Shown: positions 6,453 to 32,118 of the stretch, piece after piece
Position numbering within the stretch: the stretch's first letter is position 1
Layout of the letters: the number at the start of each line of letters is the position of its first letter
Source: a virus
IMG/VR virus record: IMGVR_UViG_3300036845_000517
Span: 1 to 46,784 of that record
Direction: 5' to 3' (one strand)
DNA length: 46,784 nt
Notes under the pieces: generated by a model
The model's input: the letters and a program-made list of their open reading frames with translations, nothing else
Told to the model about the DNA's origin: nothing
The model's database searches: none
Made by a program: the position numbers and the translations under genes

Positions 6453-6836
6453 TCTGGACGACGGCATGACGCGAACGTCAAGTCTGAAACGAAGCCCGGA
6501 AATCCTGCCCAGAACACGCGGGCTGGAGTCAAGCACGACAAGCCCGGCAAGCAAGCCAAGGCCCCGCACGAGGCGGACATCTACAAGGCCGAGCAGATAG
6601 CGCGCGCGGTGCGCTATAATGTCCATTTCCTGTATAGCCCGCACGATCGTTTTAACGTCGCATGCGCCACTTTGGCGGAGGCGCGCGGCATCGAGATTGC
6701 GATGAACGAGCAGCTTGGGAAGTACGGCCGGCGCGCGATCATCTACGCGATCAATCCCGAGGGTCAGGCGTTTCCGATGGGCGGCGGATATTCGGCGGCG
6801 ACTGCGGGCGAGCCGGCGACGGCATCCTCCGAGTAG
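6450..6836 (+). CDS. Small phage protein with Lys/Asp-rich N-terminus
   Basis: 128 residues. I chose the ATG after the conserved leader over the in-frame ATG three codons earlier. Residues 1-45 are low-complexity and basic (KHDKPGKQAK), probably a disordered nucleic-acid-binding or linker tail. Residues 46-115 look folded, with VHFLYSPHDRFNVACATLAEARGIEIAMNEQLG and a following YGRRAIIYAI. Similar DKPxK/DKQGK runs occur in three other proteins here (the 1092-residue protein, and those at 10642 and 21243), so this may be a shared linker type. The last 73 bases overlap the convergent end of the large minus-strand gene. Family not recognised. Confidence 0.7.
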   Translation: MSGRRHDANVKSETKPGNPAQNTRAGVKHDKPGKQAKAPHEADIYKAEQIARAVRYNVHFLYSPHDRFNVACATLAEARGIEIAMNEQLGKYGRRAIIYAINPEGQAFPMGGGYSAATAGEPATASSE

Positions 6837-9800
6837 GCTTCTATCGCGGCCGGTTCGGCGCCGTCGGGCAGGCCCGGATCGACGGCGGCGGGATCGCCGA
6901 AGTCGCAGGGGCCGCAGGCCTCCGTCGCGGCCCTGGGATCGCCCTTGACGAATACGAGCACGCTCTGGTGGGTCCGGCCGAGTTTTCGGGCCGCGTTGAA
7001 ATGCCGCGCCACACGTACGGGCAGGCTGCCGATGGCGGTGAGCAGGATAGCCTCATTGTAGAGGGCGAGGCCGGCCTCGGCGCAGGCCTGGATGATGTGC
7101 CCCGGCAGATCGCGATAGATGCCGGCGCGGTCGCGGATGTCGCCGATGACGATGGCGGCGAAACGGTCGGGCTTGAGACGGCGGGCGGCGGCGGCGATGA
7201 TGTCGCGGAGCGCGGCCAGGAATGCCGCGTGATCGATGACGGACAGGTCGCGCGGATCGTCGCTGTAGACCTCCAGATCGCCATAGGGCGGACAGGTCCA
7301 GATGAAATCGGCCTGGATATCGGGGTCGAGGATGTTCTCATCGAGATCGCGGGCATCGCCCACATGCCAGACCGGGTCTGGATAGCGGTCCTGGGGAGGG
7401 GCGACGGCGTGCGGGCGCTCTGACCTGGGGACGGGATGCACGTTGGCCTCCGCCTCCCTATGCTCGGCCTCGATAGCGGCGCGCAGATCGTCGCTCGGGA
7501 CGGCGTACGTGTCGCGCCCGGCATCGACGTCGGCCAGGATGCGGGCGTACTGATCAGGCCCGAACAGGGCGGTCAGTTGGCCGGCGATGGCGTCGACGAG
7601 GCGCGGCCCCTGTCCATAGTTTCCGGCGCAGCAGGACGTGGGCAGCCGGGTGCGATGGTGCAGGACGATGTTGCCGTTCTCGGGATGGGCCACGAGCGGA
7701 TACAGCAGGCACGTCACCGGCTTGTCGGCGTCGGCCAGCACGCATCCGGCCGGCCCGAGATTGCCGCATACGGCGCCGTAGGAGCGGCTCGGCCAGTAGG
7801 TGGTGCCCTTGCAGCAGGCGCCGTGACAGCGGGCCGTGATGCCGGCCAGCGTGCAGTCGTGGCGGGCGCTGAGGGTCTTGTGTCCCATGCGCCAGCGTAC
7901 CGCGTGCTCGTCGTGCTCGACCGGCGTGGGGGCTGCCTGGGCGCCGCGATCGGACGCCACGGCGGTGGCGCGGATGCCGACGATCCACAGCAGATCGCCC
8001 GGCCGCAGGAACGGCAGGCATTTGGCTTCGTAGTGCGCATCGAGATCGACATGGCCGAGCGCGGTCTCGGTGGCGGGCGCGTCATAGTCCGACCCGGAAG
8101 AGATCAGCATCAGGCGGTCGCGCCAGTCGGGCGGGGCGTAGCGGTCGAGGCGCGCGGTGGGATCGGCGCCGACGACGACGCCGACGACGGGGACATCGAG
8201 GCGCCCCGCGTCGATCAGGCCCCATAGGACGCCGGCTGCGGACATGCCGGAGCCCACCGGCATGACGATACGGGAGACGCCGTCGGGGACGTTGGCGGCC
8301 TGCCTGCGCGTCTGTGTGACGGCCTCGTCGCATTCCATGCCGAAGGGTATCTCGGCCCATCCACGCTCTGCCGCGTCGGCGCGGGCGCGGGCGACGATGA
8401 CGGAATTGTATCCGGGACGATGCTGGACGATCTCGGCGCCGCGCTCGCGGGCGGCGGTCAGTTCGGGGCCGAGGGCACCGCTGGGGGCATGCGCGCGGAC
8501 GGACAGGCCCAGGGCGCTGCCCACGGCGGCGGTGATGTTGATCTGCGGCGAGGAGCGGCTGCCGGCGGTCACGATGCCTTTCTGGCCTGCTTCGACGGCG
8601 CGCGCGGCCAGGGCGAGGCAGGTGCGGACTTTTCCGCCGCGCGGGGCATCGGGCGGGGCGCCTGGGATGGCGAACAGATCGTCGCGCTTGAGCAGGATGT
8701 CTCCGGCCGACTGGATAGGGGTGAGGCCCTCGGCGGCGGTGACGGGCGCGTCGTGGGCCGTGGGGCGGCGGCCGGCGCGGATGGCCGTCCATTGCTCGCG
8801 GTTGGCCGCGATCTGGGCTGCGGACAGGTCGATGCCGTGATACCGGCGGCCCAGGCGGGCGGCGACGATGCCCCGGACGCTGCCGCCAGCGAAGGGGTCG
8901 AGGACCAGCCCGCCCGGCGGGCAGAACCAGCGGAGCGCCAGTTCGCACAGCACGGGATCGAAGATGCTGGTGCCCGAGCCCAGCGCGTGCGGGGCGGCAT
9001 CCTGCAGCGTGGGCTCGTGGCCCCCCTCCGGGGTCGTGTGCAGCCACACGGAATTCTTCCCCGCGCCACCGGGCACGGGCGCCGCTTTCTTGGTGGCGTG
9101 ATAGCCGCCGTCGTCGGTGCGCCGGAGCCACGCGCTATTGCGGCCGTCCGGGTGCCCCGGCAGCGGCGGCCCGGCGGCGGCGCCCCTCGATGCCATCAGC
9201 CCGTTCAGCTTGTCCTGGCTGGCGATGGCTGCGGCGTCGATGCGGGCTTTGTTGTCGGCCCTTGGATTGACGATTGTCTCGCCGTGCGCCTGCAGGAGAG
9301 CGACGGCCTCGGCCTTGCTGAGTTCTCTGCCGACCTCGGCTTCGAGCGCACGCTTGCGCGCATAGAAGTCAATGGTGCCCGTCGTCTCGGGATGCAGCAT
9401 CTGCAGGTTATCCGAGCCGCGCCCCAACTCGCTGCGGATGCCGAGCGCCAGCCACGCGCGCTTGCGCGCCTGCCACCATCCCTCGCGCGCGTTCAGCACG
9501 GAGAACGGCGGGACGCCGAAGCGATCGGACAGGTTGCCCAGGACGATGGCGCGCGGCGCGGGCGGAGGCGCCAGCATGGTCGCGAGGTCTTCGGGCGTGA
9601 ATCCGGTCAGGCCGAAATCGAAGCCGTCGGTCTGCAGTTGGGTCAGTTCGAGCGACAGTAGCTCGATGTTCCACGACGAGCCCACTTCGGCGAGACGGTT
9701 GTCGGCGATCACGAGGGCGCGGCGCTGCGTCGGCGTGAGATGGTCGAGCACGATGCACGGCACCTCGACGAGGCCGGCTTTGCCGGCGGCCAGCGCGCGG

Positions 9801-10042
9801 CCGTGCCCGGCGATAATTCCGCCGTGGCCGTCGATCAGGATGGGGCTGGTCCAGCCGAATTCGCGGATGGAGGCGGCGATCTGCTCGATCTGATGTTCGC
9901 TGTGCTCGCGCGGGTTCCTGTCGTATGCGGTCAGCGAGTCCACGGTGCGATAGACGATGGTCAGGCCGGCGCGGCCGGCGGCGTCGGCGATCGGCTCGCC
10001 TTGCTTGTCTTGCTTGCCTTGCTTGTCATGCGACCTCGGCAT
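6764..10042 (-). CDS. Composite DNA-modification protein: ParB-like + split methyltransferase with inserted PLP-enzyme and Cys-rich domains
   Basis: 1092 residues. Residues 28-120 are a ParB/sulfiredoxin-like domain (YDRNPREH, IIAGHGRALAA, ADNRLAE). Residues 160-400 match the first half of a phage DNA methyltransferase family: FSVLNAREGWWQ, RKRAWLALGI, RWFCPPGGLVLDPFAGGS (SAM motif I near 380), YHGIDLS. The second half appears only after residue 890: DFIWTCPPYGDLE (catalytic CPPY near 914), DRFAAIVIGDIRD, LGRTHQSVLVFVKGDP. Between them sit a PLP-dependent domain of the ACC-deaminase/cysteine-desulfhydrase type (about 431-697; candidate lysine in GGKVR near 469; glycine loop GSGMSAAG) and a Cys-rich segment (about 720-800; CHGACCKG, CGNLGPAGC, TCLLYP, SCCAG). 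Methylation or a more elaborate base modification is inferred. The gene seems to have its own divergent promoter region at 10043-10139. Confidence 0.85.
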   Translation of the reverse strand: MPRSHDKQGKQDKQGEPIADAAGRAGLTIVYRTVDSLTAYDRNPREHSEHQIEQIAASIREFGWTSPILIDGHGGIIAGHGRALAAGKAGLVEVPCIVLDHLTPTQRRALVIADNRLAEVGSSWNIELLSLELTQLQTDGFDFGLTGFTPEDLATMLAPPPAPRAIVLGNLSDRFGVPPFSVLNAREGWWQARKRAWLALGIRSELGRGSDNLQMLHPETTGTIDFYARKRALEAEVGRELSKAEAVALLQAHGETIVNPRADNKARIDAAAIASQDKLNGLMASRGAAAGPPLPGHPDGRNSAWLRRTDDGGYHATKKAAPVPGGAGKNSVWLHTTPEGGHEPTLQDAAPHALGSGTSIFDPVLCELALRWFCPPGGLVLDPFAGGSVRGIVAARLGRRYHGIDLSAAQIAANREQWTAIRAGRRPTAHDAPVTAAEGLTPIQSAGDILLKRDDLFAIPGAPPDAPRGGKVRTCLALAARAVEAGQKGIVTAGSRSSPQINITAAVGSALGLSVRAHAPSGALGPELTAARERGAEIVQHRPGYNSVIVARARADAAERGWAEIPFGMECDEAVTQTRRQAANVPDGVSRIVMPVGSGMSAAGVLWGLIDAGRLDVPVVGVVVGADPTARLDRYAPPDWRDRLMLISSGSDYDAPATETALGHVDLDAHYEAKCLPFLRPGDLLWIVGIRATAVASDRGAQAAPTPVEHDEHAVRWRMGHKTLSARHDCTLAGITARCHGACCKGTTYWPSRSYGAVCGNLGPAGCVLADADKPVTCLLYPLVAHPENGNIVLHHRTRLPTSCCAGNYGQGPRLVDAIAGQLTALFGPDQYARILADVDAGRDTYAVPSDDLRAAIEAEHREAEANVHPVPRSERPHAVAPPQDRYPDPVWHVGDARDLDENILDPDIQADFIWTCPPYGDLEVYSDDPRDLSVIDHAAFLAALRDIIAAAARRLKPDRFAAIVIGDIRDRAGIYRDLPGHIIQACAEAGLALYNEAILLTAIGSLPVRVARHFNAARKLGRTHQSVLVFVKGDPRAATEACGPCDFGDPAAVDPGLPDGAEPAAIEAYSEDAVAGSPAVAAEYPPPIGNA

Positions 10043-25695: not shown

Positions 25696-25982
25696 CCGGC
25701 GGGTTCCCGGCCGAGGACATGACCGGCCGCAGGTTCGGCATGCTGACCGTCGTCGGCCGCGTCGTCGTCAAGGGCAGGACCCGATGGCGCTGCATCTGCA
25801 CCTGCGGCGGCGAGCGCATCACGAGCAAGAACGCGCTCACGCACAGCCACCATCCGTCATGCGGCTGCCTGGGCGAGGCGCACCGCAAGGCCGCCGTGGC
25901 GCGCGGCTATAGCGGCATCAGTCAGGGCCACCAGGGCAGCGTTCCGCCCGGCATGCTGATGCCGGATTTCGACGATGAGTAA
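25692..25982 (+). CDS. Cys-rich zinc-binding phage protein
   Basis: 96 residues from GTG at 25692. The core GRRFGMLTVVGRVV, TRWRCICTCGGERI, SCGCLGEAHRKAA matches a common small phage family in which Cys residues (CxCxCG...CGC) probably bind zinc; it is often found near homing-endonuclease-like AP2 domains, but no such domain is present here. The tail is Gly/Pro-rich and acidic. It overlaps the next gene's start by eight bases. Role unknown; nucleic-acid binding likely. Confidence 0.7.
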   Translation: MTGGFPAEDMTGRRFGMLTVVGRVVVKGRTRWRCICTCGGERITSKNALTHSHHPSCGCLGEAHRKAAVARGYSGISQGHQGSVPPGMLMPDFDDE

Positions 25983-26817
25983 GGCCCAGGCCATCCCGCG
26001 CTCGATCGCCCGCTCGATGACCGGGATCGAATGGACCGACTTTACCGGCAATCCATGGATCGGATGCACCGAGGTGCCGGCCAGCAGCGGCGGCCGCTCC
26101 GGCTGCACGATCTGCTACGCCAAGACATTTGCGGGCCGACGTCTCGGCATCCCGTGGGGACCGGGCTCGCCGCGCCAGCGCTGCGCCGGCTTCGCCAACC
26201 GCATGCACCGGCTCGACCGGCTGGCCGCGCGCACCGGTTTTCCGTTCTCCGTCTTCTCCCTCAGTCTTGGCGACTGGCTCGATCCCGAGATCGCGCCGTC
26301 CTGGCGCGCGGAGATGATCGACGTCGTCGAGGCCTGCCCGCACCTGACATGGCTCCTGCTGACGCACCGCGCCCATCTCGCGCGGCGCCTGCTGCCCGGC
26401 GCATGGTGCGCCCGGCCTCCGGCCAATGTCTGGGCCGGGGTCACGGTCGACCATCCCGCGCACGCCCATCGCTGGCGCCCGCACGCCGAGTTCTGGGGGC
26501 ACACCGGCCGCGCCTGGGTCTCCGCCGAGCCGCTCGCCGCCTCCCTGGGGGGTGTAGAGTTTCCCGGCGCGATTTGCGTCATCATCGGCGGCGCCAGCGG
26601 CACTGGTGACCCGTCCTGGGAATTCGACCCGGCCTGGGCGCGCGAGGCGCTCGACCGCTACGGCGAGGAGCGCGTGTTCTTCAAACAGTTCGGCGATTTC
26701 CGCGACGGCCGGCGGGTCGGCAAGAAAGCCGCCGGGCGCGATCTCGACGGCCGGCTCCTCGACCGCACGCCCTGGCCGCGCCACCGGGAATTGTTGCGCG
26801 AGGCCGCCGCGTCATGA
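25975..26817 (+). CDS. DUF5131 (phage Gp37/Gp68-like) protein
   Basis: 280 residues. Hallmarks: TGIEWTDFTGNPWIGCTEV, SGCTICYAKTFAGR, WLLLTHRAHLARRLLP, NVWAGVTVD, WVSAEPL, ICVIIGGASG, VFFKQFG, and RDLDGRLLDRTPWP. The N-terminal Cys set (GCT...GC..CYA) recalls a radical-SAM-like cluster site, and the fold is thought to be TIM-barrel-like. The family is frequent in phages with no settled function. It is the second gene of the operon and overlaps both neighbours. Confidence 0.9.
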   Translation: MSKAQAIPRSIARSMTGIEWTDFTGNPWIGCTEVPASSGGRSGCTICYAKTFAGRRLGIPWGPGSPRQRCAGFANRMHRLDRLAARTGFPFSVFSLSLGDWLDPEIAPSWRAEMIDVVEACPHLTWLLLTHRAHLARRLLPGAWCARPPANVWAGVTVDHPAHAHRWRPHAEFWGHTGRAWVSAEPLAASLGGVEFPGAICVIIGGASGTGDPSWEFDPAWAREALDRYGEERVFFKQFGDFRDGRRVGKKAAGRDLDGRLLDRTPWPRHRELLREAAAS

Positions 26818-27706: not shown

Positions 27707-28588
27707 ATGCCCGCACCACGTAAGCCGTCGGTCCCCAAGAAAAAGGGCTCCGACGGCCCGCTGATCGACATCATACCGATGGAGACCGGCAAGTTGCAGT
27801 GCTTCGTGCTTGGCACGATGCCGCTGATCTTCAACGCCGTTTCGCTCAAGGCGCAGCAAGAACTCCTGTTCCCGTCGCCGCCGAAAAACGCCAACGAGCG
27901 CAAGACCACGCTCAAACACGAGCCGATGAGCGAATACCGCGCAAGCGTCTATCGCTTCCGCCAGCCCGACGCGCCGACACGTCTCTACATTCCTGCGACA
28001 GCGTTCAAATCCGCCATCGGCACCGCCGCGCTGCGCACCCCAGGCTCAACCAAGACCGAGATCGGCCAACTATGCTGGGTCACCGGCACAAGCCCCGATT
28101 TCGGCGCGGATAAAATTCCGGTCTGGGGCGTGCCCCAGATGCTGATGTCGGTCGTGCGCAACAGCGATCAGGCACGCACGCCCGACATCCGCACGCGGGC
28201 GATCCTGCCGCATTGGTGTTGCTCGTTCATGATCACCCACGTCATGCCGGGGCTGACGGCCAAGGTTCTGATCAATCTGCTCAGCGCCGCCGGGTTGATC
28301 GCTGGCATAGGTGATTTTCGTCAGGAAAAAGGAAAAGGCTCGTACGGGCAATTCGACCAAGTATTGCAGGCCGATCCGACGGCGGCACAGATCATCAAGG
28401 TCGGGGGCACCGCCGCGCAGGATGCGGCCCTGGACGAGCCAGCGTATTACGACATCGAAACCGAGACGCTGTATAACTGGTTCCTCGAAGAACTGGTCAA
28501 ACGCGGCCCGGACGCGCCGAAGAAGCTGCCGCCGGAACTGATCCCGGAGGACGCTCCCAACGAATACGAAATCGATGGAGTCCGCTGA
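27707..28588 (+). CDS. Conserved phage protein, unknown (recombination-region type)
   Basis: 293 residues. Features: TMPLIFNAVSLKAQQEL, EYRASVYRFR, RLYIPATAFKSAIGTAAL, VWGVPQMLMSVVRN, RTRAILPHW, INLLSAAGLIAGIGDFRQEKGKGSYGQF. I have seen this layout as an unassigned phage family next to a short partner gene, as here. The IGDFR...GxxGxF ending is reminiscent of RAMP-type folds, but that is only a resemblance. It is translationally coupled to the next gene (TGATG). Confidence 0.75.
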   Translation: MPAPRKPSVPKKKGSDGPLIDIIPMETGKLQCFVLGTMPLIFNAVSLKAQQELLFPSPPKNANERKTTLKHEPMSEYRASVYRFRQPDAPTRLYIPATAFKSAIGTAALRTPGSTKTEIGQLCWVTGTSPDFGADKIPVWGVPQMLMSVVRNSDQARTPDIRTRAILPHWCCSFMITHVMPGLTAKVLINLLSAAGLIAGIGDFRQEKGKGSYGQFDQVLQADPTAAQIIKVGGTAAQDAALDEPAYYDIETETLYNWFLEELVKRGPDAPKKLPPELIPEDAPNEYEIDGVR

Positions 28589-29115
28589 TGGCATCGACGA
28601 CTGATCTGCAAATACTCGACGAGATCGCCAACAGCAATGCGGGCGTTCTCACCCCGGATGCCGTCGTCGCGGCGGCGAAGGACAACCAGCATCCGTGGCA
28701 TGATCGTTTTGATTGGGACGATCATTCGGCTGCGGACAAATGGCGGGTCAGTCAGGCCAGGGCGCTGATCGCCATGATCAGCGTCACCCGCATGACCGAA
28801 ACCCGAGTTCTTACTTGTGTCGGTTATGTCCGGGATCAGGACGCGGCCCCCAGCGAGCAAGGCTACGTCGCGGTTGCCCGCCTGATGGATGACAAGCAGC
28901 GGGCGCGAGCGGCGTTGCTTGCCGAGGCCGAGCGCGTCGGCTCCATGGTCCGTCGCATGATGTCGATGGCGGCAATGCTGGATTACGATCATCTCGTCGC
29001 GCCGATGGTCAGATCGCTCGATGACTTTGTTCTCGCCGTGGCTGCGGAACAGGCGGGTCCGCCGCCGCCGCCGCCGCGCGGCCGATCGCCCGGTCGGCCC
29101 TCGGCGCGTCACTGA
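28588..29115 (+). CDS. Conserved partner of the 27707 protein, unknown
   Basis: 175 residues. LTPDAVVAAAKDNQHPWHDRFDWDDHSAADKWRVSQARALI is the family signature; the C-terminal half is an Ala/Met-rich helical bundle and ends in a Pro-run and basic tail. It overlaps its partner by one base, so the two are probably made together. The first header of the repeat array begins directly after its stop codon. Confidence 0.72.
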   Translation: MASTTDLQILDEIANSNAGVLTPDAVVAAAKDNQHPWHDRFDWDDHSAADKWRVSQARALIAMISVTRMTETRVLTCVGYVRDQDAAPSEQGYVAVARLMDDKQRARAALLAEAERVGSMVRRMMSMAAMLDYDHLVAPMVRSLDDFVLAVAAEQAGPPPPPPRGRSPGRPSARH

Positions 29116-29120
29116 TGCTT

Positions 29121-29172
29121 CGGACCGCGCCGGGACACCGGGGGTGGAAAACGCGGGGGATGTCGTGGACAG
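29121..29172 (+). repeat. Array header 1
   Basis: CGGACCGCGCCGGGACACCG, then ACGCGGGGGATGTCG. It begins five bases after the stop of the 28588 gene. Confidence 0.75.
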
Positions 29173-29637
29173 ATGCGGCCGACGAGGGCTGGCGCGTCAC
29201 GGCGCGGCTGGGCCAGGCATGGCATGGAGAGGCCAGTTCTGGCCTGTCGAGGCGGGACACGGCAGGCGGGACAAATCGAGGCCGACGCGATCAGGCGAGG
29301 CATGGCATGGCTTGTCCAGGCCTGGACTGTCGAGGCGGGGGAGGGCAGGCGAGTCGAGACAACGCCGACGCGGACAGGTTCGTCCGGGCAACGCGCGTCC
29401 TGTTCGGGCGCGGCGTGTTCCGGCTGGGCATGGCGTGGCCGACGAGGCGCGGTCGGGCACGGCTTGGCAGGGTCGGGCGGGGCCGACGCGGCTGGACGTG
29501 GCACGGCTTGGTTCGACGCGACACGGCTTGGCCGACGTGGTTCGGGGAGACCCGGCGTGGCAACGCTTGTCATGGCCGACGAGGCGGGGCGGGGCGTGTC
29601 TGGTTGCGGCAAGACAAGGCCCGTCATCGCTGATTTA

Positions 29638-29690
29638 CGGACCGCGCCGGGACACCGGAGCACGCGGGGGATGTCGCGGAGAGGATGGCC
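29638..29690 (+). repeat. Array header 2
   Basis: Preceded by CTGATTTA; shares CGGACCGCGCCGGGACACCG with header 1 exactly, then ACGCGGGGGATGTCGCGGAG, leading into GGCCGAC. Confidence 0.75.
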
Positions 29691-29988
29691 GACATGGCGG
29701 AGCACGGCCGGTTGCGGCCCGGCTCGGACGGGTCCGGCGTGGCGCGGCATGGCGCGTCCTGGCGAGGCCGACTAGGCGAGTCTGGGCCGGGCGCACGAGG
29801 CGAGGCCCGGCGCGGCTTGGCGCGGCCGATGCGGTCCGTCAGGGTCCGGCATCGCTCGGTGGGCGCGGCCTCTTCCGGTTCGGCTGGGCCGGACTAGACC
29901 GGGCAAGGCAGCGCCAGTCGAGGCCGACGTGGCGCGGTGCGACCGGGCTCGGCGGGGCGGGGCTGGGCTTCGCCGACGTGGCTGGTAT

Positions 29989-30043
29989 CGGAGCGCGCCG
30001 GGACACCGGGCACAACGCGCGGGATGTCGCGGAGAGGATTGGC
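29989..30043 (+). repeat. Array header 3
   Basis: CGGAGCGCGCCGGGACACCG, then ACGCGCGGGATGTCGCGGAG, leading into TTGGCCGAC. It differs from header 2 at few positions. Confidence 0.75.
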
Positions 30044-30429
30044 CGACGCGGATCGGCTGGTATGTCAAGGCGCGGCGGGGCATGGCACCGATCGGCCAGT
30101 CTGGGCAGTGCGCGGCGGGGCTGGGCTGGGCCGGGCACGGCCGACATGTCATGGCGGGGCGACGCCGGTCCCGGCCTGGGGCGGACGGTCTGGCTCGGTG
30201 CGGCCGGGCGAGTTCTGGCGAGGCCGACTTGGCTGGGCGGGTCCAGTCTCGGTCTGGCCGGGCGGGTCGGGGGCTGGCATGGCACGGCGCGGCTGGGCCG
30301 ACAGGGCTCGGCCCGGACGGCCGTGGATGTCCCGGCAGGCCTAGGCATGGCCGGTTGTGGCCGACACGGCGTGTCAGGGTGCGGCTTGTCCCGTAGGGCA
30401 TCCCTCGTTCTGGCACGGCTCGGCTGATA

Positions 30430-30484
30430 CGGAGCGCGCCCCGACAGGGGGCCAACGCGCGGGATGTCGCGGAAGACACGGCCG
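30430..30484 (+). repeat. Array header 4
   Basis: CGGAGCGCGCCCCGACAGGG, then ACGCGCGGGATGTCGCGGAA, leading into ACGGCCGAC. The most diverged copy in its first half; the second half is conserved. Confidence 0.7.
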
Positions 30485-30850
30485 ACAGGGCGGGACTAGA
30501 CCCGGCGCGGCCAGCCTAGGCCGGGCAACGCGAGGCCGACGAGGCACGTCACGGCGCGGCGCGTCATGGCTTGGCCTGGACTGTTAAGGCCGACATGGTC
30601 CGGCCGGCCTAGGCTTGGCGAGTCACGGCTTGGAGCGGCCCGGCGTGGTGCGGCATGGCTCGGCGAGGCCGACGGGACTAGGCACGGCTGGTCCAGGCAC
30701 GTCCTGGCCGGGCGGGGCAAGGTCTGGCGGGGCCGACGCGGACAGGCCCGGTGATGCACGTCCTGGCGCGTCAGGGCTCGGCAGGGCGCGGCAGGGTGCG
30801 TTATGGCCGACACGATGCAGGCGGGCGGGGAGCGATCCCCGTCCGTTGCT

Positions 30851-31357
30851 TTATCCTGCGAGCGATAATTGATTCGGATAGATGCCGGTTCGCACGGCGC
30901 GATACCAAAACCAGACGACGGCCGCATCGCCGGAATTATGGCTCGCCGGCCGGAGCCCTTGTCGTCGGCACCAGAGCATTACCGCTTTTTTCATCGCATC
31001 GGAGCTTCCGGCGCGGTTGAGGCCAATCACGGCGGCGCGCGCGATGTCGGCCGATACTTCCGTGACGGGCAGCGATTCCCGATAGGCGACCGCCAACGCG
31101 ATCGCCCGCAATCCGAGTTGTTGGCGCGCGGACGCTTCGTTGTTCATCGCGAACACTGACAGCGGCGACTCCATCACGATGTATTCCGGCTCATGCGCGT
31201 TAAGCAGGAGAATGATCTCGTTCTCCAGGGCAGCAAGGCGCGCGCCCTCGCCACCCTCGAACGGCAGATAGATGTCGCCCATCACCGGCCGGTCGCCCCG
31301 GATGTCGCCGCAAGCCCACCCGGTTTGGCGGCTTAGATCGAATGTGAGCGCGATCAC
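30851..31357 (-). CDS. RuvC-like Holliday junction resolvase
   Basis: 168 residues from a GTG that overlaps the upstream stop (GTGA). RNase-H-like signature: IALTFDLSRQTGWACGD (Asp 7), YIVMESPLSVF (Glu near 60), SADIARAAVIG and HNSGDAAVVWFWY (final Asp). These are the acidic residues of the RuvC/phage resolvase family, which cuts four-way junctions formed in recombination or clears branches before packaging. The gene is translationally coupled to the RMF-like gene and ends beside the repeat array. Confidence 0.85.
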   Translation of the reverse strand: MIALTFDLSRQTGWACGDIRGDRPVMGDIYLPFEGGEGARLAALENEIILLLNAHEPEYIVMESPLSVFAMNNEASARQQLGLRAIALAVAYRESLPVTEVSADIARAAVIGLNRAGSSDAMKKAVMLWCRRQGLRPASHNSGDAAVVWFWYRAVRTGIYPNQLSLAG

Positions 31358-32118
31358 TCGGCGGCTTGCCCACCCTCGACGGTCTGACCGCGCAGCACGC
31401 GCGGCTTCTTGTCCCGCGCGCCCGCCGGCCGTCCGCGCTTCTTCTCGGCCGGCGCCTTGATCGCCCCCGCCCGCGTCGTCGATCGCGGCGGCATCGGCAC
31501 CACCGTCCCGGCGGACGGAACCGGCGCATCGAAGTTGAGCCGGCCCACCACGCCGCGCTCCTTCGCCGTGGGCGGCTTCTCCTTGCTGTCCGTCTTGGCC
31601 GCCCGCGCGGGCTTGCTCCTGCTGGCGTCCGCCACCTTGGACTCCGGCCCGGCCTCGGCCTCGCGCATGCGGAATCCGTCCTGGCGATACCGTTCCCACG
31701 CCGCGTACATATCGCTGCCAGACGGATGCGGATTGCCGTCGGCCGACGCACCCTGTCGGCCCGACTTGTAGCCGGCGTCCTCGGCCGCGAACAGATGGTC
31801 GGCATAGCGCGCGCGCTCGCTGACACGCACGTCGAGAGTGTTTAGTTTTTCGAGCAGGATTTCGCCGCTGTCCGGGTAGCGCACCGCCTCGATGCGCACG
31901 CGGTCGATGAACCGCTGCCGACGCTCCTCCGGCGGCAGTTGCCCAAGCTGATGCGCCTCGATCAGCGCGTCGGTGGGCAGCCCGGATTTCTTGAGCCGCT
32001 TGATCAGGAGCCGGTGACGGCTGACCGCCTCATCCTTGTCCCGGATGCTGCGGGCGATCTCGTGCTGGGCCGAAATCAGGGCTTCGGGCGGCACGTTGTT
32101 CAGCGCGATGTCGGCCAC
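31354..32118 (-). CDS. Basic protein with RMF-like motif and AT-hook
   Basis: 254 residues. An N-terminal helical region (1-85) is followed by AGYKSGRQGASADGNPHPSG and AAWERYRQDGFR, the G...NPxxxG...AW..G pattern of ribosome-modulation-factor-like domains often found in phage proteins. The C-terminal 90 residues are basic and disordered and contain KKRGRPAGARDKKPR, an AT-hook-type GRP core. DNA or RNA binding is inferred. Divergent from the 32260 operon. Confidence 0.7.
   Translation of the reverse strand: MADIALNNVPPEALISAQHEIARSIRDKDEAVSRHRLLIKRLKKSGLPTDALIEAHQLGQLPPEERRQRFIDRVRIEAVRYPDSGEILLEKLNTLDVRVSERARYADHLFAAEDAGYKSGRQGASADGNPHPSGSDMYAAWERYRQDGFRMREAEAGPESKVADASRSKPARAAKTDSKEKPPTAKERGVVGRLNFDAPVPSAGTVVPMPPRSTTRAGAIKAPAEKKRGRPAGARDKKPRVLRGQTVEGGQAAE

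Follow-up and report, generated by a model that had tools for sequence, protein, structure and literature searches.

Introduction

The closest described relative of the locus analyzed here is the VIPR (Viral Interference Programmable Repeat) system, reported in a 2026 preprint (PMC13142463). According to the main text of that source, the system is composed of a phage-encoded ancestral RAMP protein (Vipr), an accessory protein (Vap) and vrRNAs of 9-16 YNNGG repeats, in which GGY and NN motifs alternate. Vipr is described there as a minimal RAMP with an RRM core and a glycine-rich loop. Its thumb domain prevents pairing at the GGY positions, and the NN dinucleotides pair with the target DNA at a one-base skip, which falls mostly on codon wobble positions. 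The resulting RNP represses competing phages. A minimal locus contains vipr and vap, with the guides in the flanking noncoding DNA, and each vrRNA repeat tract is followed by a structured invariable 3' tail, which is pseudoknotted in the SUSP1 clade. The systems are mostly phage-encoded and have been divided into seven types (I-VII). vrRNAs aimed at other VIPR systems have been reported, and staggered arrays with overlapping vrRNAs are mentioned in the main text without detail (PMC13142463).

The window analyzed here is a stretch of 46,784 nucleotides from an IMG/VR virus record with terminase, tail-fibre and RecT-like genes, which accords with VIPR being mostly phage-encoded. Its locus fitted the minimal VIPR plan, with vipr at 27707-28588, vap at 28588-29115 and a repeat array at 29116-30845, and it combined a RAMP protein bearing a glycine-rich loop with GGY/NN-type repeats in which GGC was dominant. 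It was concluded with high confidence that 29116-30845 was an array of multiple vrRNA guides belonging to a VIPR system. The best explanation of its role was that it serves the RAMP protein encoded by the upstream rightward operon.

Organization of the locus

The features of the locus were assigned as follows.

27707-28588, plus strand: vipr, RAMP (Cas7/Csm3-like) protein of 293 aa, assigned by AlphaFold2, Foldseek, VIA, a PDB profile match and hhalign
28588-29115, plus strand: vap, accessory protein of 175 aa (candidate Vap), phrog_15946 (function unknown), overlapping the vipr stop codon
29125-29164, plus strand: structured element 1, GACA-loop hairpin within an outer stem, pseudoknotted to UGUC
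29178-29636, plus strand: guide run 1 (Viterbi parse), one-base slips (GGC/C/GAC) between units, most NN common to the first two
29642-29675, plus strand: structured element 2
29688-29987, plus strand: guide run 2 (Viterbi parse)
29993-30028, plus strand: structured element 3, outer C-G pair swapped to G-C
30042-30428, plus strand: guide run 3 (Viterbi parse)
30434-30468, plus strand: structured element 4, inner stem CCCC/GGGG in place of CCGG/CCGG, GACA loop retained
30481-30819, plus strand: guide run 4 (Viterbi parse)
30820-30847, plus strand: terminal hairpin, terminator-like, 3' end of the array

A preliminary description of the window, made from its letters only, had pointed to a pentamer array in this stretch, and the periodicity proved to be real. 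The base identity at lag 5 was 0.448, when dinucleotide shuffles gave 0.320 ± 0.010 (z = 12.3), and further peaks were present at lags 10 and 15. In every other 1-kb segment the lag-5 identity was at most 0.32, confining the pentamer order to 29116-30845. About 22 phase-breaking GCCGAC copies had been noted; exactly 22 were counted, when the shuffles gave a mean of 1.5 and a maximum of 6, and GGC was found 173 times compared to 107 in shuffles. The reported G bias of the plus strand was also reproduced (G 44.6%, C 29.7%), the GC skew of +0.20 lying beyond the range of −0.13 to +0.14 recorded in the rest of the window. TA-words, said to be absent, were in fact present in 14 copies, at about half the density of the remaining window.

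The Viterbi parse of the array yielded ~337 G[GTA]C-type triplets. The linkers between them comprised two bases in 298 cases and one base in 34, and /C/GAC made up 21 of the one-base class. Therefore, GCCGAC, which reads as ...GGC-C-GAC-NN-GGC... with a 1-nt linker where nearly all others are of 2 nt, was recognized as a one-base phase slip, and this slip accounted for a second autocorrelation series at lags 19, 24 and 29. The proposed stepping in GGCNN held for the five-base step, but the spaced triplet, although dominated by GGC, was often GTC, GAC or GGT. In total, ~20 guide units were arranged in the single 1.7-kb array, and the units between slips contained 8-16 NN dinucleotides, several of them being unusually short or long.

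The order, which had been described as three-level, retained its pentamers and slips and gained a fourth level, as a ~40-nt structured element, present four times, split the array into four guide runs, each copy standing at the head of one. In each element, an outer stem enclosed a hairpin whose GACA loop could pair with a UGUC located farther downstream. Standard pairs were found in 52 of the 52 cells and both-side changes in three pairs, a covariation drawn from four copies only, in which the identical loop pairs neither support nor oppose the pseudoknot. This covarying structure argued for an RNA rather than a DNA array. An entry motif, TG(G)TC-RCGG, was located just 5' of the first slip in many arrays of the clade and occurred four times in the window, each time after a structured element. 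The sole structure at the 3' side of the array was the terminator-like hairpin, and similar hairpins followed the arrays of the homologous loci L122 and L123. A search of Rfam returned nothing above the gathering score and two weak sub-threshold matches, both outside the array. At the DNA level, the array resembled no phage record.

Among the neighboring genes, two were located side by side on the minus strand (30851-31357 and 31354-32118), one encoding a RuvC-like resolvase and the other a product that weakly matched the ribosome modulation factor (RMF). A DUF5131/phrog_2045 gene of unknown function was located ~1 kb upstream of vipr (25975-26817, plus strand). Farther away, a 1092-aa protein in which families of ParB-like partition nucleases and DNA methyltransferases are joined was encoded at 6764-10042 on the minus strand.

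Vipr and Vap proteins

The product of 27707-28588 matched phrog_4652 alone (function unknown), and no family was found for it in Pfam, NCBIfam or PADLOC. The protein was aligned with 43 IMG/VR relatives, and in the resulting alignment of 44 sequences the glycine-rich loop GxGDFRQEKGKG was invariant. The AlphaFold2 model built on this alignment reached a pLDDT of 86.4 and a pTM of 0.80. All top matches of the model in the PDB were Csm3 or type VII Cas7 (Foldseek, E ~1e-5, probability 1.00), and CRISPR Cas7-family subunits were matched by VIA with a Z of 9.7 and an rmsd of 4.0 over 156 residues. In the whole-model comparison, residues 24-222 were aligned with Csm3, a thumb-bearing protein. On the evidence of the predicted structure, Vipr has the RAMP fold.

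The protein shares with the Cas7/Csm3 RAMP subunits of class 1 CRISPR systems the fold, the crRNA-binding architecture and periodic unpaired guide positions. In contrast to those systems, the window contained a single RAMP and no significant Cas7 sequence match, CRISPR repeats or spacers, and its guides are proposed to pair by dinucleotides every five RNA bases.

When the Vipr family profile was run against all PDB sequences, a single match was obtained, 36pp_D, named 'SUSP1 Vipr protein' (E 1.8e-4). The hhalign comparison with SUSP1 Vipr gave a probability of 95.8 and an E of 6.8e-9 over a span that included the glycine-rich loop region, where GIGDFRQEKGKG of the window protein was aligned with GVGDWRPRFG of SUSP1. 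Gene 42 of Gordonia phage Pipp was matched by both proteins. Judged by these sequence comparisons, the window Vipr is a homolog of SUSP1 Vipr.

The product of 28588-29115 was regarded as a candidate Vap. Its homologs were encoded in 83 of the 87 vipr loci. The AlphaFold2 model had a pLDDT of 89.4 and no significant match among PDB folds; since the best Foldseek E was 1.2 and the VIA match (Z 6.9) covered one helical hairpin, no claim on the fold of Vap was made. A winged-helix DNA-binding role, suggested by the helix-strand order of the model, is only a guess. No family was found in Pfam, NCBIfam or PADLOC, and a search of IMG/VR by vap peptide patterns gave no confirmed relative, because these patterns were too divergent.

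The locus was further compared with that of SUSP1 (Escherichia phage, KT454805; PDB 36pp), as far as the latter is presented in the main text of the preprint (PMC13142463). In both, a phage-encoded vipr/vap locus lies beside a noncoding region of pentamer repeats, the RAMP carries a glycine-rich loop (GxGDxR), GGY/NN repeats have a variable NN, for which the composition in the window suggests the same 1-nt-skip coding logic, and a pseudoknotted element is tied to the guides. The window Vipr is larger (293 versus 195 aa) with an extended loop, FRQEKGKG, and the window Vap showed no sequence relation to SUSP1 Vap1. Whereas SUSP1 has four separate ~100-nt vrRNAs, the window guides follow each other within one array, are bounded by one-base slips, and have GGC, next to GTC/GAC variants, in place of GGT. 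The structured elements of the window precede the guide runs, while the published vrRNAs carry a 3' tail.

Homologous loci

A search of IMG/VR by the Vipr protein alone yielded 80 loci. An array, defined as a strict GG[CT]NN pattern on the same strand within [−2.5, +4] kb of vipr, stood beside Vipr in 55 of them, and an array elsewhere was found in one locus only. In the reverse search, by the pentamer pattern alone, at least 120 loci were recovered, and 65 of the 120 listed encoded a Vipr relative. Among the named genomes bearing the locus were those of Bradyrhizobium, Microvirga, Aureimonas, a Binatia, an uncultured Rhizobiales and a Nannocystis MAG, with Microvirga zambiensis WSM3693, Bradyrhizobium pachyrhizi PAC 48 and Aureimonas ureilytica as cultured hosts. 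Vipr homologs annotated as hypothetical were also encountered on Paracoccus and Sulfitobacter plasmids (NZ_CP040759.1:2728-3540 and NZ_CP136687.1:15464-16189).

The combination of vipr, vap and a slip-punctuated GGC/NN array on one strand was shared by the window and the loci L122-L201 and L204-L210. The search of related phages for arrays with resets, suggested in the preliminary description, showed that the one-base slip was conserved throughout the clade, its letters being specific to lineages. The slip was G/GTC in most relatives, A/GGC in L156, L157 and L167-L169, T/GGC in L201, A/GAC in L200, C/GTC or A/GTC in L128-L129, and C/GAC in the window. By this comparison, GCCGAC is one lineage's form of a clade-wide slip and no separate motif. 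Between slips, the clade units most often contained 9 NN (104 of 519) and next 10 NN (78 of 519), when the published range is 9-16. Unlike the window with its fourfold leader elements, most homologous loci held one array without them.

Several loci deviated in layout. In L122 and L123 the pentamer array was located between vipr and vap, not 3' of vap. The arrays of L125 and L172 exceeded that of the window, with ~508 and ~558 triplets after vipr and dozens of potential guides. In L019 the pentamer pattern was matched by both strands over one stretch (1098-1187), and the array seems to be palindromic.

Proposed guide code and candidate targets

The composition of 5561 NN dinucleotides from the clade was compared with that of codons in six registers. 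Codon positions 1-2 in sense gave the best agreement (r = 0.78), beating any other codon register by at least 330 log-likelihood units, and the fit was improved by allowing ~20% antisense. For the 298 NN of the window itself, the correlation with codon positions 1-2 was 0.79. Such a composition is as predicted from the published 1-nt-skip (wobble) code.

All arrays were then compared with 2.4 Mb of loci. At skip 1, 24 exact matches over 8 NN were obtained, versus 8-10 for shuffled guides; no excess was observed at skips 2 and 3, and skip 0 gave 14 versus 7-11. The excess at skip 1 was owed largely to two guides, those of L162 and L210. In L162, the first of the units that follow vipr (10737) spelled EETRELWA and matched, in frame, the 3' end of vipr in ten other records, and the vipr of L162 itself differed from this guide in two NN (SETQELWA). 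Likewise, the corresponding unit of L210 (Microvirga, 10773) spelled EVKRRAA* and matched in frame the 3' end of vipr in L205 and L183. The vipr of L210 encoded the same residues with AGA CGC for CGC AGA, a synonymous recoding that mismatched two NN. In a search restricted to vipr genes, these two guides were the only ones with exact matches over 8 consecutive NN, and no exact match was obtained with frame-shifted, antisense, other-skip or shuffled controls. In a wider scan with mismatches, the excess over controls at skip 1 was only slight. In the relatives, convincing guide-target pairs were limited to two. We infer from these two cases that the owner may escape its own guide by recoding of vipr; alternatively, the mismatches to the own vipr could have arisen by drift from an autoregulatory guide.

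The guides of the window were searched in the same manner. Matches to the window itself were not above shuffles, hence there was no obvious self-targeting, and a 12-NN scan of ~3.4 Mb of related loci was not above shuffles either. In IMG/VR, a pattern common to units 1 and 3 gave 15 matches, none extending past the seed, another guide gave no match, and yet another gave 5 matches ending at or near the seed end. For two window guides, 385 genomes belonging to a single class as well as smaller family samples yielded no target. The units at 29181 and 29284 had most NN in common and, if decoded, would spell related peptides (..II[DE][HQ]LL[DE]G..), which suggests that they are directed at two versions of one target gene.

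Discussion

It was considered whether the slips bound guides at all. In a VIPR array made of long or overlapping ('staggered') vrRNAs, they could serve only as changes of register, and one transcript or guide would then correspond to each of the four blocks. Overlapping vrRNAs in staggered arrays do appear in the main text of the preprint (PMC13142463), and the irregular length of several window units would suit them. However, the unit length had a clear mode at 9-10 NN, and the L210 match began right after a slip triplet and ended one NN before the next slip. This reading was judged rather unlikely, and the slips were taken as guide boundaries.

The earlier suggestions for the stretch were a structured RNA, a multi-site protein-binding array and a recombination or replication substrate, of which the first was retained. 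A double-stranded DNA array read by protein, namely a partition site, a replication origin or a recombination substrate of the adjacent RuvC-like protein, was found very improbable. It would agree with repeated sites adjoining the RuvC-like gene, with the strong strand asymmetry and with a ParB-like domain protein being encoded elsewhere in the window. Nevertheless, in the relatives the array tracked vipr and vap and invariably shared their strand. Codon-position composition of the NN and gene matches at the 1-nt skip in two relatives would be unexpected for protein-binding sites, and the covariation of the elements is a sign of RNA. Of the neighbors pointed out previously, it was the rightward operon that mattered, as it encodes the RAMP protein for the array, and the RuvC-like gene on the opposite strand has no part.

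The preliminary description had seen no plausible gene here, and the same conclusion was reached. The stretch might by chance be a repeat protein gene with a five-residue period, such as the 468-aa ORF at 29021-30427: 422 codons were open in one array frame, and the conceptual protein repeated every five residues. The frames are open because TA is scarce in a GGCNN sequence, and the ORF had no PHROGs family match. Every plus frame was cut to less than 80% of the array length in 32 of the 50 arrays of relatives, and the conserved feature was a one-base slip, which is no multiple of three, leaving a protein gene extremely improbable. Another RNA-guided system, e.g., a CRISPR or TIGR-Tas array, has practically no chance of being correct, as the RAMP fold common to Vipr and Cas7 was opposed by a protein profile that matched Vipr and not Cas7 by sequence, by a pentamer repeat unit with 2-nt variable linkers, and by the lack of fixed long repeats between unique spacers and of cas genes seen beside the array. 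A CRISPR array was rejected by inspection and tandem-repeat search, which showed pentamer order, not repeat-spacer order.

We return to the multi-guide vrRNA array, for which the following mechanism was proposed. The array would be transcribed rightward, either together with vipr and vap or from a promoter of its own. As in the published mechanism, Vipr monomers would line up on the RNA, one on each GGY-type triplet, leaving the NN free. One guide would correspond to the NN run between one-base slips (GGC/C/GAC), typically of 9-10 and here of 8-16 NN, whose dinucleotides would pair with positions 1 and 2 of consecutive codons in the target gene and leave out the wobble base. The RNP of this phage would bind the DNA of its competitors and repress it. 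The four pseudoknotted elements heading the guide runs are probably loading or processing handles, and processing may take place at the slips.

A broader scheme for the clade is offered tentatively, as a possibility that we do not favor strongly. Its format might depart from published vrRNAs with a tail in being one long multi-guide transcript segmented by the slip, the lineage-specific slip letters (C/GAC, G/GTC, A/GGC, T/GGC) co-evolving with Vipr as a mark of self-recognition, with the first guide directed against a rival vipr and the owner's vipr recoded to escape.

The preliminary description knew of no phage element of such order, a view superseded by the VIPR systems with GGY/NN vrRNAs reported in 2026 (PMC13142463). 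The window would be a further member of these systems, with an array grammar that is not detailed in the main text of that preprint (PMC13142463). The NN dinucleotides, which appear to copy the first two codon bases, lend the wobble-skipping code sequence-level support that is independent of the published experiments. The slips may provide a rule for dividing multi-guide arrays, and two cases were found in which phages apparently target each other's vipr and spare their own. Judged by at least 120 contigs with one strict pattern, VIPR arrays would be common in uncultured, largely alphaproteobacterial phages, and a seemingly inexplicable repeat would become a readable list of targets.
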